Source: Flavobacterium sp. (lineage in GTDB: Bacteria > Bacteroidota > Bacteroidia > Flavobacteriales > Flavobacteriaceae). From it: 6,125 nucleotides of DNA. The stretch spans positions 1 through 6,125 of the forward strand of contig JAGORP010000115.1 in NCBI GenBank assembly GCA_018062725.1, written 5' to 3'. The translations under genes were made by a program, and so were the position numbers. The notes below the pieces were generated by a model. The model saw nothing but the letters and a program-made list of their open reading frames with translations, was not told the DNA's origin and made no database searches. Positions 1 to 6,040 of the stretch are shown here, piece by piece; position 1 is the stretch's first letter; each line of letters starts with the position of its first letter.

Positions 1-393
1 TTGTAATCCCATAAGCGCACAAACGGTAGCTATTGCCACTCCGTGTTGCCCGGCACCAGTTTCGGCAATGATTCTATTTTTTCCTAAATGTTTGGCGACT
101 AATATTTGTCCAATCGTATTGTTTATTTTATGAGCTCCTGTATGACACAAATCTTCTCTTTTTAAATAGATTTTAGTGTTGTATTTAGCAGATAGACGTT
201 TGGCAAAATAAAGCGGAGTCGGACGTCCTACATAGTCCTTCAGCAGTTGTTGGAACTCCTTTTGGAAACTTTCTGTTTTGATGATTTTTAAATACTCTTG
301 ACGTAATTCTTCTACATTTGGGTAAAGCATTTCAGGTATGAAAGCTCCACCGAATTCGCCATAAAATCCTTTTTCGTTAACGTGATAATTCAT
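1..393 (-). CDS. trpB: Tryptophan synthase beta chain, N-terminal 131 residues (gene continues past left edge)
   Basis: The beta subunit condenses indole, channelled from TrpA, with L-serine to give L-tryptophan, using PLP in the cytoplasm. Reading from the ATG at 393, the protein opens with [20 protein letters not shown], the usual TrpB beginning. It continues with GRPTPLY (residues 56-62), the PLP-lysine motif HTGAHKINN (84-92, Lys89 as the Schiff-base residue), and [11 protein letters not shown] (110-120), where Glu111 matches the catalytic glutamate of the family. About one third of a normal TrpB of roughly 390-400 residues is present. The frame is open to base 1, so the truncation is only the window edge. 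The start lies inside the end of trpF, giving a 17-nt overlap in a different frame, which suggests translational coupling. No clear Shine-Dalgarno sequence is visible. trpA would be expected next but is outside the window. Confidence 0.97.
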
Positions 394-982
394 GTTGCAG
401 TTTTTTTAATAGAGGTGTGTTTTTTAATCCGGGTTCGATTTCGAATTTGCTGTTGACATCGAGCGCGTATATGGGTAATTCTAGTTTTTTGATTTTTTCA
501 ATTTCTTCTAAACCAATTCCTCCACTTAGAAAAAAAGGTTTTTGGGAAGGATATTTTTTCAAAATTTCCCAATTGAAGACTGTTCCGTTGCCACCAGGTT
601 GTCGTCCTTTTGTGTCGAATAAAAAGTAATCACAAACTGTTTCGTAAGGTGTAATTACATCAAAATTAAAGGTATCATCAACTGAAAAGACTTTGATAAC
701 CTTTGCATCAGTTTGTTTGAACAATTTGCAAAAATCGGGTGTTTCATTGCCGTGTAATTGCACAAGTTGTAAATTATAGCTGCGAACTTTGTCTAAAATA
801 TCATCCAAATAGGCATTTACAAAAACGCCAACTTTTTTTGTGAATTTGGGTAGCGTAGGGATTTCTCCGTTAAAAAATCGAGGCGATTTATCGTAAAAAA
901 TGAATCCCAAATAATCAGGTTGCAGGGAAGCAACTTCCTGAATATTCTCTAGATATTTCATGCCGCATATTTTCAGTTTCAT
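377..982 (-). CDS. trpF: Phosphoribosylanthranilate isomerase (TrpF)
   Basis: This enzyme catalyses the Amadori rearrangement of N-(5'-phosphoribosyl)anthranilate to CdRP, the step between TrpD and TrpC. The 201-residue length fits a single-domain (beta/alpha)8 PRAI. The N-terminal KICGMK (residues 4-9) holds the catalytic base Cys6. LFDTKG (121-126) holds the probable catalytic acid Asp123. [10 protein letters not shown] (129-138) and FLSGGIG (151-157) are the substrate and phosphate loops, and [16 protein letters not shown] (173-188) is the C-terminal phosphate-binding signature. HGNE (77-80) is also typical. The ATG at 982 is required: the next in-frame Met is residue 8, and starting there would lose Cys6. 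The start lies 3 nt after the trpC stop and the stop lies inside trpB. TrpF is a separate protein here, not fused to TrpC as in enterobacteria. Confidence 0.97.
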
Positions 983-985
983 GGC

Positions 986-1771
986 TTATGGAATTAGTTT
1001 TTTAATAAATTCATGTGCTGCTTGGCCCGGATTTTTCGTTTTCATAAAGTTTTCTCCAATTAAAAAACCTTGGTAACCAAAAGATTGTAATTCGATGATA
1101 TCTTTTGGATTCGAAATACCACTTTCTGAAACTTTGACGAATTCATCTGGTATAAGTTTGGCCAATTCTTTGCTGTAATCGAGATTGACTTCAAAGGTTT
1201 TAAGATTACGGTTGTTCACGCCAATCATGTCTAGACTTGGCATAATTACTTTGTCTAGTTCTTCTTTATTATGAATTTCCAACAAAACTTCTAGTCCTAA
1301 TGAATGGGCAAATTCGGATAGTTGTTTGATTTCAATACGGGTTAAAACAGCTGCAATTAATAAGATAACATCGGCTCCATGTGCTTTGGCTTCAAGGATT
1401 TGATATTCCTCAATGATGAACTCTTTTCTTAATAAAGGGATTTTTACAGCGGCTTTGGCCAATATTAAATCGTCTAAAGAACCACCAAAGTATTTCCCAT
1501 CCGTTAATACTGAAATTCCAGAAACTCCGGCATTTTGATATCCAATAACCACTTCTTCCACCGAAAAATCATTGCTAATTACCGATTTTGATGGAGAACG
1601 ACGTTTGTGTTCTGCAATGATTCCGACTTGATTATTTCGTAGGTTTTTGCTCATTGAATGAGTACGACTACCAAAAAGTACCGTGTTTTCGAGTTGACCC
1701 ACAGAGATTAGTTGTTTTTTTAAGGCAACTTCTCGTTTTTTATCGTTTATAATTTTATCTAAGATGTTCAT
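986..1771 (-). CDS. trpC: Indole-3-glycerol phosphate synthase (TrpC)
   Basis: TrpC closes the indole ring by decarboxylating and cyclising CdRP to indole-3-glycerol phosphate, the substrate of tryptophan synthase. The 261 residues form one complete TIM-barrel domain. The family residues can be followed along the barrel: IAEHKRRSPSK (52-62; Glu54, Lys56), ISVLTDGKYFGGS (86-98), PLLRKEFIIEEYQI (112-125; catalytic Lys116), GLEVLLEIHN (159-168; Glu165), IGVNNRNL (183-190; Asn186), VSESGI (214-219; Glu216, Ser217) and GFLIGENFMK near the end. These roles are assigned by analogy with the characterised archaeal and bacterial enzymes. The TAA stop is 3 nt before trpF, so the two are probably co-translated. 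Upstream, a 62-nt AT-rich spacer separates it from trpD; I see no promoter or hairpin there. Confidence 0.97.
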   Translation of the reverse strand: MNILDKIINDKKREVALKKQLISVGQLENTVLFGSRTHSMSKNLRNNQVGIIAEHKRRSPSKSVISNDFSVEEVVIGYQNAGVSGISVLTDGKYFGGSLDDLILAKAAVKIPLLRKEFIIEEYQILEAKAHGADVILLIAAVLTRIEIKQLSEFAHSLGLEVLLEIHNKEELDKVIMPSLDMIGVNNRNLKTFEVNLDYSKELAKLIPDEFVKVSESGISNPKDIIELQSFGYQGFLIGENFMKTKNPGQAAHEFIKKLIP

Positions 1772-1833: not shown

Positions 1834-2832
1834 TTATCCCTTATTACTTAACTCTTGTAACTTTATTAATTTCCCTAAAGCTTTTCCGCTTAATAAGCTT
1901 TCTTTAGCCAATTCAAATCCGTCTGAAATCGAGCAGTTTTTTACAGTCGCTATTGCCATTCCAGCATTGGCACAAACGACATTGTTTTGAGCTTGAGTAC
2001 CGTTTCCTTTTAAGATGTTTAGGAATATTTCGGCTGATTTTTTAATAGTTATACCTCCAAGAATATCGCCTTCCTGTAGTTTTTGCACTTTATAATCTTC
2101 CGGTTTTACAATCTGTTCATAGTTTTTGGAAATGATTTTGGTATTTCCGGTCAAAGAGATTTCATCGTAACCTTCTAAACTATGTAAAATGGTGAAATTT
2201 GTTTCGGTCTTTTGGTACAAATAGGCATACATTCGAGCGAGTTCCAAACTGAAAACACCGACTAACTGGTTTTTTGGAAAAGAAGGATTTACCATTGGTC
2301 CCAACATATTGAAGAAGGTTTTTACGGCTAATTCTTTGCGAATTGGAGCGACATTTTTCATGGCAGGATGGAAGAGAGGGGCGTGCAAGATGCAAATACC
2401 TGCTTCTTCAATCGATTGCTTTAAAAAGGTTTCATCATTACTGAACTTAATGTCTAATATTTCCATTACATTACTGGATCCTGAAATGGAAGAAACACCA
2501 TAATTTCCATGCTTTGCTACTTGAATTCCTGCTCCCGCCGCAACAAAAGAAGCCAGTGTTGAAATATTGAAGGTGTTTTTACCATCTCCTCCAGTACCAC
2601 ATAAATCGATGGTATTATAATCGGTTAAATCGATGGGAATACAGAGTTCCAGTAAGGCTTCACGAAATCCAGCAAGTTCTTCAATAGTAATATTTCGCAT
2701 CATATAAACCGTTAAGAAACTCGCAATTTGTGCAGGGTTGTAAAGTCCATTCGAAATATTTTTCAACACAGTTTTTGCCTCTTCTTTGGAAACGGTCTCG
2801 TGTTGTATTAATCTATTTAATATTGTTTTCAT
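1834..2832 (-). CDS. trpD: Anthranilate phosphoribosyltransferase (TrpD)
   Basis: TrpD transfers phosphoribose from PRPP to anthranilate. The 332 residues match the usual length of a stand-alone enzyme, with an alpha-helical N-terminal domain and a nucleoside-phosphorylase-like C-terminal domain. LCGTGGDGKNTFNIST (77-92) is the glycine-rich PRPP pyrophosphate loop. VAKHGNYGVSSISGSSNVME (105-124) is the second signature; many bacteria have Arg-Ser where this protein has Tyr-Gly, a variant I associate with Bacteroidota. HPAMKNVAPIRKEL (155-168) includes Arg165, the likely anthranilate contact. FFNMLGPMVNP (173-183) and YDEIS (222-226; Asp223 and Glu224 for Mg) follow. It is not fused to TrpG, unlike in E. 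coli. It starts 150 nt downstream of the trpG stop; the spacer contains an inverted-repeat element. No Trp residue occurs in the protein. Confidence 0.97.
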   Translation of the reverse strand: MKTILNRLIQHETVSKEEAKTVLKNISNGLYNPAQIASFLTVYMMRNITIEELAGFREALLELCIPIDLTDYNTIDLCGTGGDGKNTFNISTLASFVAAGAGIQVAKHGNYGVSSISGSSNVMEILDIKFSNDETFLKQSIEEAGICILHAPLFHPAMKNVAPIRKELAVKTFFNMLGPMVNPSFPKNQLVGVFSLELARMYAYLYQKTETNFTILHSLEGYDEISLTGNTKIISKNYEQIVKPEDYKVQKLQEGDILGGITIKKSAEIFLNILKGNGTQAQNNVVCANAGMAIATVKNCSISDGFELAKESLLSGKALGKLIKLQELSNKG

Positions 2833-2838
2833 GTTTTT

Positions 2839-2986
2839 TAGCTTTTAGGCTTTTAGCAATTAGCTATCAGCTGTTTTATCGTACGTTAAATTTGAAATAT
2901 AAAATCCTGGGTTAGTAAAATTTACTATCCTAAATAATTATAAAATGTTAATTGCTAGTGGCTAACTGCTAATAGCTGATGGCTAA
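2839..2986. repeat. Degenerate AGCT-rich inverted repeat filling the trpG-trpD spacer
   Basis: Both ends of the spacer are built from imperfect copies of a roughly 10-nt unit resembling TTAGCNATTAGC. The left cluster lies at about 2839-2873 and the right cluster at about 2947-2986. AGCTGATGGCTAA at 2974-2986 is complementary at 12 of 13 positions to 2860-2872, and TAATTGCTA at 2949-2957 is exactly complementary to 2854-2862. The order of these modules differs between the arms, so this is not one clean hairpin but a set of competing stems. The right arm runs into trpG and supplies its TAG stop (2983-2985). In the mRNA it would form a structured spacer between two cistrons. It could be a member of a dispersed intergenic repeat family, which one copy cannot prove. 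Confidence 0.6.
2910..2930. repeat. 21-nt palindrome in the centre of the trpG-trpD spacer
   Basis: Two 10-nt arms (2910-2919 and 2921-2930) around a single central base are complementary at 9 of 10 positions; the core is TAGTAAA / TTTACTA. With one central base it cannot fold fully as an RNA hairpin, so it could be a protein-binding dyad or simply the core of the surrounding repeat element. I see no convincing TAnnTTTG promoter beside it on the minus strand. Confidence 0.4.
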
Positions 2987-3552
2987 GAATTAACCCAGTT
3001 TTCTAAGATTTTCTTTCCATTAGGTGTAAGCACGCTTTCAGGATGGTATTGTACCCCGCGAACATCGTAGGTTTTATGTCGGAGGGACATGATTTCTCCA
3101 TTTTCATCTACAGCAGTGATTTCCAAAACGTCTGGAAAATTTTCTTTTGCGACCACCCAGGAATGGTAACGTCCCACTTCTATTTCATCTGTTAAATCTT
3201 TAAAAAGTAGTTCATCAGGAACGATAATTTTGACTAGGGTTGCCACACCATGATATACTTTTTCAAGATTAGCTAACTGTCCACCAAAAACTTCTCCAAT
3301 TGCTTGCTGGCCAAGACAAACACCGAGAATACTTTTAGTAGGGGCATAGGTTTTGATAACTTCTTTGAGTAAACCTGCTTCATCAGGAATCCCTGGACCT
3401 GGAGAAAGCAAAATTTTATCAAAGTCTTTTAGTTCTTCCATGTAAAATTCGTCATTACGAAAAACGGTGACTTCGCAATTTAAATCTTCCAAATAATGGA
3501 CTAAATTGTAAGTGAAACTATCATAATTGTCGATAACTACTATTTTTTTCAT
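2983..3552 (-). CDS. trpG: Anthranilate synthase component II, glutamine amidotransferase (TrpG)
   Basis: TrpG hydrolyses glutamine and passes ammonia to TrpE, which uses it to aminate chorismate. The 189 residues are a complete class I (triad) glutamine amidotransferase. NYDSFTYNLVHYL (9-21) is the family start, LLSPGPGIPDEAG (48-60) forms the oxyanion and glutamine loop, GVCLGQQAIGE (77-87) carries the nucleophile Cys79, GRYHSW (127-132) is typical of TrpG/PabA, and VQYHPESVLTP (167-177) carries His170 and Glu172 of the triad. It lies 60 nt downstream of trpE and is not fused to it. Because it adjoins trpE in a trp operon, anthranilate synthase is the primary role; the subunit may also serve aminodeoxychorismate synthase (PabA), as happens in some bacteria. 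The TAG stop lies within the arm of the downstream repeat. Confidence 0.97.
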   Translation of the reverse strand: MKKIVVIDNYDSFTYNLVHYLEDLNCEVTVFRNDEFYMEELKDFDKILLSPGPGIPDEAGLLKEVIKTYAPTKSILGVCLGQQAIGEVFGGQLANLEKVYHGVATLVKIIVPDELLFKDLTDEIEVGRYHSWVVAKENFPDVLEITAVDENGEIMSLRHKTYDVRGVQYHPESVLTPNGKKILENWVNS

Positions 3553-3612: not shown

Positions 3613-5010
3613 TTAAATTTTTTCTGCTAAATCTAAGGCTTTGTTCAAAGCTTCTAATTTATTGTAGACTTCATTCATTTCACTTTCTTCATCAGAACTG
3701 GCCACGATTCCGGCTCCCGCTTGGTAATGCAATTGGTGATTTTTACTCAAAAAGGTACGAATCATAATGGCGTGGTTAAAATTACCATCAAAATCCATAA
3801 AACCAATAGCACCACCATAAAATGTTCGATTAGTATTTTCTATGCTTTCGATGAGTTGTAAGGCTTTATGCTTTGGTGCTCCAGATAATGTTCCAGCAGG
3901 AAAGGTATCGGCAACTACTCGCATAGTTGGTTTTTCGGGTTTTAATTTACCGGTTACCTTGGAAACCAAATGAATAACATGCGAAAAAAACTGTACTTCG
4001 CGGTATTTTTCAACTTTGACACTATATCCGTTTCGACTTAAATCGTTTCTAGCCAAATCGACTAACATCACATGTTCGCTATTTTCTTTTGGATCTTCCG
4101 ATAATTGTTTGGCCAAAAGGGCATCTGATTCATCGTTTCCAGTTCGTTTAAAAGTGCCTGCAATGGGGTGAATTTCGGTATTTTTATTCTTGATAATTAA
4201 TTGTGCTTCAGGCGAAGATCCTATAATTTTGAAGTTACCATAATCAAAATAAAATAGGTAAGGGGATGGATTAATGCTTCGCAAGGCACGATAAACATTA
4301 AACTCGTCTCCTTTGAAATTTTGCGTAAATCTTCGGGATAAAACTAATTGAAAAACATCCCCACGAAAACAATGTTTTTTGGCTAACACAACATTAGCTT
4401 TGAAATCTTCATCCGTTAAATTGGAAGTAACACCATTTTCTTTATTAAATGAAAAAGAAGAAAAGTTTTTGGCTTGAATAAGTTGTTCGATTTCGGAAAT
4501 ATTATTCTGATTGTTTGCATTGTGGCAAAATAGATACGCTTCGTTTTTAAAATGATTAATCACAATAATGTTTTGATAAACCGCATAATAAACTTCTGGA
4601 ATTTGCAATTCAGAACCTTTTTTTTCGACGGTTACGTTGTCGAAATAACGTACGGCATCGTAAGAAATATAACCAAATAAACCGTTATTGATGAATTTAA
4701 AATCGGTATTGGTGGTTTCAAATTGAGATGCAAATGCTTGAATTCCTTCCAGTACTTGTTCAGAACTTTCAATAGTCGTTGTTGTATTTCCGTCTGGTAG
4801 TGCAACAGAAATGGTCTCATTTTCGACTTTGATACTCGCGATGGGATTGCAACAGATATAAGAAAAACTATTGTCATTGCTATGATAATCATTGCTTTCA
4901 AGCAACAAGCTATTCGGGAATCTATCTCGCAATTTTAAATAGATACTCACGGGCGTAATCGTATCGGAAAGGATTTTTTTGTAATGGGTATGTAAGGTAT
5001 ATTTTTGCAT
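3613..5010 (-). CDS. trpE: Anthranilate synthase component I (TrpE)
   Basis: TrpE converts chorismate plus ammonia from TrpG into anthranilate and pyruvate, the committed step of tryptophan synthesis. At 465 residues it has a normal length with both domains. The N-terminal domain has the regulatory LLLES (35-39); with NPSPY (247-251) this forms the family's tryptophan feedback pocket, so allosteric inhibition is likely. The chorismate-binding domain has QLVLSRRF (221-228), HPIAGTFKRTG (281-291), EHVMLVDLARNDL (312-324, His313 catalytic), FPAGTLSGAPK (370-380) and AGAGIVASSDEESE (431-444), the last with acidic Mg ligands. The ATG at 5010 lies 18 nt after the attenuator's T-run with no clear ribosome-binding site, as is usual in Bacteroidota. 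TrpE contains no tryptophan. PabB was considered, but the adjoining trpG, the Trp leader and the operon context make TrpE secure. Confidence 0.98.
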   Translation of the reverse strand: MQKYTLHTHYKKILSDTITPVSIYLKLRDRFPNSLLLESNDYHSNDNSFSYICCNPIASIKVENETISVALPDGNTTTTIESSEQVLEGIQAFASQFETTNTDFKFINNGLFGYISYDAVRYFDNVTVEKKGSELQIPEVYYAVYQNIIVINHFKNEAYLFCHNANNQNNISEIEQLIQAKNFSSFSFNKENGVTSNLTDEDFKANVVLAKKHCFRGDVFQLVLSRRFTQNFKGDEFNVYRALRSINPSPYLFYFDYGNFKIIGSSPEAQLIIKNKNTEIHPIAGTFKRTGNDESDALLAKQLSEDPKENSEHVMLVDLARNDLSRNGYSVKVEKYREVQFFSHVIHLVSKVTGKLKPEKPTMRVVADTFPAGTLSGAPKHKALQLIESIENTNRTFYGGAIGFMDFDGNFNHAIMIRTFLSKNHQLHYQAGAGIVASSDEESEMNEVYNKLEALNKALDLAEKI

Positions 5011-5028: not shown

Positions 5029-5064
5029 AAAAAAAAAGGCTTGTCGTGATTGACAAGCCTTTTT
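5029..5064 (-). terminator. Intrinsic terminator of the trp attenuator, directly before trpE
   Basis: On the minus strand AAAAAGGCTTGTC (5064-5052) and GACAAGCCTTTTT (5045-5033) form a perfect 13-bp stem with the 6-nt loop AATCAC, and the T-run continues to nine (5037-5029). The T-run ends 18 nt before the trpE start and the hairpin follows the trpL stop. A terminator ahead of the first structural gene and after a Trp-rich leader peptide is the expected position of an attenuator. On the plus strand the hairpin is also followed by five T, so it might weakly stop opposite-strand transcription. Confidence 0.93.
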
Positions 5065-5097
5065 ATCTATTTTGGTTTTAAAAATACAGATAGGAGG
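5058..5097 (-). promoter_or_regulatory. Candidate antiterminator hairpin of the trp leader
   Basis: In the leader RNA CCT (5097-5095) can pair with AGG (5060-5058), TATCT (5092-5088) with AGATA (5068-5064), and ATTTT (5085-5081) with AAAAT (5073-5069). The loop is TAAAACC, with an internal loop CC/AAA and a GU bulge. The structure takes AGG and one flanking A from the 5' arm of the terminator, so the two are mutually exclusive at the stem. Pairing was found by eye and no energy was computed. It is AU-rich and much weaker than the terminator, so it would have to form first, while a ribosome is stalled. Confidence 0.5.
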
Positions 5098-5103
5098 ATT
5101 CGC

Positions 5104-5160
5104 TCACGATTTTCGACGTAAGTTTTTCCACCACCAAGTATTGTTTAAAATGTTATTCAT
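5104..5160 (-). CDS. trpL: trp operon leader peptide with three tandem Trp codons
   Basis: The ATG at 5160 opens an 18-codon frame, MNNILNNTWWWKNLRRKS, ending in TGA at 5106-5104. Codons 9-11 (5136-5128) are three consecutive TGG. The peptide probably has no function as a protein. Its translation senses charged tRNA-Trp: with scarce Trp the ribosome halts at the TGG run, the downstream antiterminator is free and trpE is transcribed; with ample Trp the ribosome reaches the stop codon, covers the 5' side of the antiterminator, and the terminator forms. The support is positional: a promoter about 24 nt upstream, the stop 39 nt before the terminator stem, and trpE just after. Three Trp in 18 residues contrasts with three in about 1,580 residues of the enzymes. 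No Shine-Dalgarno sequence is clear, as for its neighbours. It is too short for ordinary gene callers. Confidence 0.93.
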   Translation of the reverse strand: MNNILNNTWWWKNLRRKS

Positions 5161-5183
5161 TTCGAATCTTTATTTCTTCGGTA

Positions 5184-5318: not shown

Positions 5319-5834
5319 ATGAAATCAGTAAAAAGAATAGCTACTTTTCTGGATAAAATTGTAAAAATAGTTGCCATTGGGTATCTGATTACGGCTATTT
5401 ACACCTTAACCAATTGCCTGTTTAAAGGCCCATTTTTTGAAACTTTGGAGAAGAATCGTTTTGCCATTAATTTTCCTTTTACCCAAGTACATTTTTTGCT
5501 AGGCTCTGAATATTCCTTTGAATATGTCGCCGAAATGGTTATCGGAATTGGACTTTATGGTCTTTTCTTTTGGGTATTGAGCAATGTTTTTAAAACGTTT
5601 AAGCAAGAACGATTGTTTACCCAAAGTGGATTGAGCTATTTGAAACAATTTTACTTATTTAACCTAATAATGTATCCGATTTTAGCCATTATTTGGGCTT
5701 TTATAAGTCAGGAAGATTTTCCTTTTTTTGCCATGATTATGGCACATGCTATCATGGGAATATTTATCTATTTCATGGCAGCAATATTTAAGCAAGGTGT
5801 GAATTTACAAGACGAACAAGATTTATATATATAG
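5319..5834 (+). CDS. DUF2975-type four-helix membrane protein
   Basis: The function is unknown. The 171 residues show four hydrophobic segments at about 14-34, 68-92, 109-130 and 135-157, predicting an inner-membrane protein with little outside the bilayer apart from a 35-residue stretch between helices 1 and 2. The loop FKTFKQERLFTQSGLSYLKQ (91-110) and the C-terminal tail FKQGVNLQDEQDLYI (157-171) resemble the conserved loop and the acidic tail ending in a short hydrophobic motif that I associate with DUF2975. No signal peptidase site or catalytic motif is visible. The ATG is well placed after a Bacteroidota-type promoter. The next gene, a small HTH regulator, starts 2 nt after the stop; this pairing is recurrent for the family and is the best functional hint. 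Family assignment rests on memory of the pattern, not a search. Confidence 0.85.
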   Translation: MKSVKRIATFLDKIVKIVAIGYLITAIYTLTNCLFKGPFFETLEKNRFAINFPFTQVHFLLGSEYSFEYVAEMVIGIGLYGLFFWVLSNVFKTFKQERLFTQSGLSYLKQFYLFNLIMYPILAIIWAFISQEDFPFFAMIMAHAIMGIFIYFMAAIFKQGVNLQDEQDLYI

Positions 5835-5836
5835 TT

Positions 5837-6040
5837 ATGGCAATAATTGTAAATGTTGATGTTATGCTTGCTAAACGTAAAATGCAAAGCAAAGAATTGG
5901 CTGAAAAAATTGGTATAACTACTGCTAATTTATCCATTTTAAAGACAGGCAAAGCTAAAGGGATTCGGTTTGATACTCTTGAAGCGATTTGTGAAGCATT
6001 GAGTTATCAACCAGGAGACGTGTTAGAATACGTAAAATAA
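5837..6040 (+). CDS. Small Cro/C1-type (XRE) helix-turn-helix regulator, YozG-like
   Basis: This 67-residue protein is almost entirely one HTH domain. After the beta-like start MAIIVNVDVML, helices 2 and 3 fall at about 18-37 (SKELAEKIGITTANLSILKTG), with the classical ELAEKIGI helix-turn and a recognition helix around TTANLSILKTG. IRFDTLEAICEALSYQPGDVLEY (43-65) is the closing pair of helices seen in the short HTH_26/YozG-like group. There is no effector or dimerisation domain. It probably binds DNA as a dimer and may repress its own operon; that is inference from size and context. It begins 2 nt after the DUF2975 gene, so the two are surely co-transcribed and probably work together, for instance with the membrane protein controlling the regulator. 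The target genes are unknown, and nothing links it to the neighbouring trp operon except location. Confidence 0.9.
   Translation: MAIIVNVDVMLAKRKMQSKELAEKIGITTANLSILKTGKAKGIRFDTLEAICEALSYQPGDVLEYVK

Follow-up and report, generated by a model that had tools for sequence, protein, structure and literature searches.

The element upstream of trpE in the Flavobacterium sp. DNA analysed here (6,125 nt in its entirety, hereafter the window) is an already known RNA, the Bacteroid-trp element of Rfam (RF01692), and it is very probably best explained as a ribosome-mediated attenuator that would use an antiterminator as a kinetic switch. Computation further supports a new, family-wide antiterminator, in which UCGUGA and CCU of the leader are set against the terminator loop, the start of the terminator 3′ arm and its 5′ arm.

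A conserved leader ORF with tandem Trp codons

The leader ORF and its parts are as follows.

5160-5104, minus strand: trp leader ORF of 18 codons, MNNILNNTWWWKNLRRKS followed by TGA, found by ORF reading and with a counterpart in relatives
5136-5128, minus strand: three tandem TGG (Trp) codons in the sequence, regulatory, the probable site of ribosome stalling
5106-5104, minus strand: stop codon TGA of the leader ORF, read from the sequence

The ATG, three tandem TGG codons and stop codon that the original prediction had placed on the minus strand are correct to the base. The sequence TGGTGGTGG occurs once in the window when both strands are counted, and the Trp-run leader ORF exceeds chance expectation, as no short ATG...(TGG)3...stop ORF arose when the 308-nt intergenic stretch was dinucleotide-shuffled 5000 times. 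The proposed comparison of trpE upstream regions was run on the best 80 of 579 trpE-like places, which comprise 78 from Flavobacterium, one from [Flexibacter] and one from a Flavobacteriaceae bacterium and reach at most 81% trpE identity to the window; a WWW leader lies upstream of trpE at 80 of these 80 loci.

The terminator and the trp operon

Downstream of the leader ORF lie an intrinsic terminator and the trp genes.

5064-5033, minus strand: intrinsic terminator with a perfect 13-bp stem and a 6-nt loop, from a hairpin scan
5037-5029, minus strand: U tract (nine T) of the terminator, read from the sequence
3613-5010, minus strand: trpE (anthranilate synthase component I), first gene of the operon, with its ATG at 5010
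2983-3552, minus strand: trpG
1834-2832, minus strand: trpD
986-1771, minus strand: trpC
377-982, minus strand: trpF
from 393, minus strand: trpB, truncated by the window end

The T run ends 18 nt before the trpE ATG, and the perfect 13-bp terminator with nine T that had been claimed at this distance was confirmed. A terminator 3′ of the leader was detected by script in 129 of 130 sequences; for L060 and L068 the widest scan chose a stronger hairpin farther upstream, and a scan restricted to the post-leader stretch found the terminator. From leader start to trpE the distance is 268 nt in L001 and 260 nt in L056, as against 146-197 nt at the other 78 trpE loci, and at these two extra sequence must therefore lie 3′ of the terminator. 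Elsewhere in the window, a divergent pair on the plus strand (5319-6040) encodes a DUF2975 protein and a small HTH_26 (Cro/C1-type) regulator.

Identity with the Bacteroid-trp family

The leader region and the upstream part of the terminator coincide with a published RNA family.

5180-5052, minus strand: match to Rfam RF01692 Bacteroid-trp, 61.5 bits against a gathering score of 49

The match covers the full model (1-131), scores over the gathering cut-off, lies directly upstream of trp genes and has relatives in Bacteroidota, and the element has the short tandem-Trp ORF and the intrinsic terminator before the first gene that characterize ribosome-mediated trp attenuators; the window sequence forms 8 non-standard pairs among the 24 of the Rfam stem. 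Bacteroid-trp was published in 2010, with Table 1 of that paper giving it as a Bacteroidetes RNA with “y” for cis-regulatory (Weinberg et al. 2010, PMC2864571), and a 2019 paper likened this element, upstream of the Flavobacterium psychrophilum trp operon, to the E. coli trp leader (PMC6414381). For the same species, strong clues to leader-peptide attenuation upstream of amino-acid biosynthesis operons are described in the main text of PMC9723704. With RF01692 in Rfam and F. psychrophilum named in PMC6414381, the implied novelty of an attenuator in this lineage is not supported. A literature search found no experimental test of a Bacteroid-trp element in Bacteroidota among the matches listed.

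Trp operons in other phyla use TRAP or T-boxes, and it might be supposed from this precedent that the present leader senses uncharged tRNA or tryptophan directly, through a T-box, a riboswitch or a TRAP-like protein, with the ORF being incidental. Such direct sensing is exceedingly improbable here, as neither a T-box nor a riboswitch model is among the five Rfam matches that the window gives at E up to 1, the Trp-run ORF is present in all 80 of the relatives compared (the best 80 of 579), and the leader geometry fits masking by the ribosome. The E. coli-type model RF00513 (Trp_leader) is likewise absent from these five matches. Weak matches to RsaE, Thr_leader and Phe_leader over the same bases, and to MIR2606 elsewhere in the window, scored far below the respective gathering scores and were rejected; among plasmid records there was no near match.

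Distribution in Bacteroidota

At E<=0.001, RF01692 was matched in 46 of 392 genomes across the phylum (42 over the gathering cut-off), in 178 of 249 genomes from the family of G385 (156 over it), in 20 of 247 from the order of G341 (12) and in 18 of 121 from the order of G365 (3), in searches to which stricter filters applied when they were larger. The fetched stretch contains a trpE-like tblastn match for 44 of the 46 phylum matches. The attenuator remains ahead of trp genes although the first gene differs (gene names assigned by eye). By eye, the first long ORF after the leader is trpB-like in L085, L091, L114 and L122, with the trpE-like match behind it, while L127 and L128 are without a trpE match and carry trpD- and then trpF-like genes.

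Family-wide counts were made on 207 of 210 sequences (the window and L001-L209), which were dereplicated to 98 representatives, 13 of them from L001-L080. Left out before counting were L114, whose stem is too imperfect for the script, L204, whose leader by eye has a GTG start and escaped an ATG-only script, and L137, whose Trp leader (MKTSLFNAYWWRCLQL, with two Trp) precedes a terminator cut off at the contig end. From the 178 matches in the family of G385, the top 30 and, from the bottom of the rows listed, 20 more were taken, plus some from the phylum set. Among the 207 are some loci drawn twice from the same genome (e.g. L081-L084 with L004-L001), duplicates that the similarity filter removed. 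Three Trp codons are present in 201 of the 207 collected leaders and two in the other 6. The L122 leader, MLHTMVNTFFWWRLLQLPKS, has two Phe codons beside two Trp codons ahead of its trpB-like gene and perhaps responds to more than one aromatic amino acid.

Promoter and predicted 5′ UTRs

A promoter element that had gone unmentioned in the original prediction lies upstream of the leader.

5191-5184, minus strand: Bacteroidota sigma-A -7 box TACATTTG, an exact match to the consensus TAnnTTTG

From the position of this box, which spans -12 to -5 according to PMC9723704, transcription is predicted to start at about 5179, so that about 19 nt of 5′ UTR should precede the leader ATG; all transcription starts given here are box-based predictions of this kind. 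A TAnnTTTG box was found at most 100 nt upstream of the TGG run in 83 of the 98 representative leaders and in none of the remaining 15, against a background of 48 boxes per 71,792 nt (0.067 per 100 nt). The predicted 5′ UTR in the 83 is 0-5 nt long in 28, 10-19 nt in 48 and of other length in 7. Boxes lie 4-5 nt 5′ of the leader ATG in L059, L063, L079, L093, L095, L096, L113, L117, L123, L125, L168, L184, L192 and others, a spacing that predicts a leaderless or almost leaderless leader ORF. L204 has a WWW leader for which GTG is the fitting start by eye, 5 nt 3′ of its TATATTTG box.

Leaderless attenuator ORFs reportedly occur in mycobacteria, as described in a 2020 paper on polycysteine ORFs. 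We regard as evenly balanced the proposition that Bacteroid-trp elements attenuate in the classical way with leader ORFs that are leaderless or almost so, drifting between these and the 10-19 nt forms while the antiterminator logic is kept; a leader ORF of this type, if real, would explain prompt ribosome loading without a Shine-Dalgarno site. In the phylum, leaderless mRNAs were put at 5.5% in F. psychrophilum (PMC9723704, main text) and 5′ UTRs of <10 nt at about 3.7% in B. thetaiotaomicron (PMC7366714, main text), and 87% of predicted transcripts are given as having leaders of >10 nt in F. johnsoniae (PMC6847099).

A predicted antiterminator in the window

The two strands of the predicted antiterminator are as follows.

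5095-5109, minus strand: antiterminator 5′ strand, UCGUGA 5109-5104 (last codon and stop), GA 5101-5100 and CCU 5097-5095, from the predicted minimum free energy (MFE) fold and family tests
5044-5060, minus strand: predicted antiterminator 3′ strand, AGG 5060-5058 and UC 5053-5052 (terminator 5′ arm) and UCACGA 5049-5044 (loop and first two bases of the 3′ arm)

The predicted pairs are UCGUGA with UCACGA, GA with UC and CCU with AGG, enclosing a UAUCUGU hairpin, at -13.8 kcal/mol. In the window folds, RNA upstream of the stalled ribosome was hidden and the terminator emerged in steps of the nucleotides made. With 21 nt of terminator the antiterminator is the MFE fold for stalls at W1, W2 and W3, with 24 nt it is so for stalls at W2 and W3 and not at W1, and from 28 nt the terminator is the MFE fold in every stall state. 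Part of the antiterminator 5′ strand would lie under a ribosome at the stop codon, and for this state the antiterminator was never predicted as the MFE fold at any terminator length folded for the window. Taken alone, the window is suggestive only, with P values of 0.055 and 0.07 for duplex energy in a first and a second test and 0.12 for pair count.

Once the RNA is full-length, equilibrium favours the terminator in either ribosome state (0.94 and 0.95), and any switch would therefore have to be kinetic. The same preference could be read as a terminator that merely ends stray upstream transcription or exerts constant polarity control, beside a Trp leader that is non-regulatory; a constant terminator of this sort, however, needs neither the Trp run nor a leader strand that fits its own terminator better than others, as described below, and is very unlikely to be the whole of the element.

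A predicted antiterminator across the family

Because the MAFFT alignment seems to put GTGAGA of L121 and similar sequences out of place, the pairing was assessed by duplex tests on unaligned sequences rather than by counting pairs in the alignment. The first such test gave 31 of 37 at P<=0.05, with a segment that began 9 nt before the ORF end and missed L123, whose partner lies farther upstream; the segment of the second began 9 nt after the last TGG. Antiterminator duplex energy beats dinucleotide shuffles, which control for composition only, in 73 of the 98 representatives at P<=0.05; the window falls outside these 73. When leaders were exchanged among 25 distinct terminators, the own leader won 474 of 600 swaps (P ~5e-5), and over all 98 the own-leader mean was -13.3 versus -11.7 swapped (P 2e-4), as the 1:2 pairing over the Trp codons was -10.4 own versus -8.9 swapped (P 2e-4), all three P values coming from permutations that ignore relatedness.

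Antiterminator pairs average 13.0 for a stall at the last Trp codon and 2.9 for a ribosome at the stop codon, and they are more numerous in the former state in 98 of 98. Part of this contrast is inherent in the comparison, since a ribosome at the stop leaves less RNA exposed. At least 5 pairs persist with the ribosome at the stop in 20 of 98. Shuffling the leader sequence reduced the mean to 7.5 pairs versus the real 13.0. In 97 of 98 representatives the real leader yields more pairs than its own shuffles do on average; the excess reaches P<=0.05 in only 54 of the 98, a set that likewise excludes the window.

The word CGTGA forms the leader stop in 47 of 98, lies out of frame inside the ORF in 14, follows the stop in 7 and is absent from 30, in which substitute words include GTGAGA/TCTCAC (L121), CAAAGTCTT/AAGACTTTG (L123) and GGCAGCC/GGTTGCC (L127). 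That the word is kept while its place relative to the ORF shifts suggests selection on the RNA rather than the peptide. This bears on the idea of a trans role for the leader peptide or for the short terminated RNA, such as that reported for Sinorhizobium peTrpL (PMC7298713). Among the best 80 of 579 trpE-like places there are indeed few distinct endings after WWW, in line with trans action (KNLRQTS 25, NNLRQTS 22, NNLRQSS 12, SNLRQTS 9). The ending nevertheless varies in wider relatives, and together with the shifting position of CGTGA this makes trans action highly improbable. The ribosome-mediated trp attenuation originally proposed gains support from the Trp codons, from the terminator and from an antiterminator strand that is matched to its own terminator and could be masked by a ribosome at the stop.

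A model for attenuation

We propose that RNA polymerase starts near 5179 from the TAnnTTTG promoter and that translation of the 18-codon leader begins behind a short 5′ UTR that has no evident Shine-Dalgarno site. Under Trp-tRNA shortage, the ribosome would stall at the TGG codons, and the stretch from the last leader codon and stop through CCU would be free to pair with the terminator 5′ arm, the loop and the start of the 3′ arm as these emerge; the terminator would then close too late, and transcription would probably continue into trpE and onward. When Trp-tRNA is plentiful, the ribosome would reach UGA and cover UCGUGA and the following bases, the antiterminator would not form, and transcription would stop before trpE. 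Computation shows the leader, the terminator, membership of the family, conservation and the family-wide fit of the antiterminator strand to its own terminator; the start site, stalling, timing, read-through and tryptophan response are inferred.

Comparison with known systems

The window element resembles RF01692 Bacteroid-trp in its place before trp genes, its Trp-codon leader and its score over the cut-off, and can be annotated by name with a public model. That model ends within the terminator 5′ arm and contains one hairpin over the Trp codons (1:2); its consensus structure as given in Rfam is without an antiterminator (2:3) or a terminator (3:4), both of which are predicted here. The leader-ORF attenuation candidates in the transcriptomes of F. 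psychrophilum (PMC9723704) and B. thetaiotaomicron (PMC7366714) are a further likeness within the phylum, although the word “tryptophan” is absent from the main texts of both papers. The phylum is described as being without Shine-Dalgarno sequences (PMC6847099).

The antiterminator and the very short predicted 5′ UTRs make concrete predictions for attenuation in such a phylum. In the E. coli trp attenuator, the leader has two Trp codons, the RNA forms 1:2, 2:3 and 3:4 pairings, and a ribosome at the stop codon masks the antiterminator. The window element is like it (RF00513) in its Trp codons, in the 1:2 and 3:4 pairings and, as predicted, in the 2:3 pairing and its masking at the stop, and differs in having three Trp codons rather than two, no evident Shine-Dalgarno site and a short 5′ UTR, and in a predicted antiterminator that extends into the terminator loop and 3′ arm. 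What the present analysis adds beyond the known family is a conserved alternative hairpin, predicted by computation, and, in some relatives, leaders that appear to start near the first RNA base.
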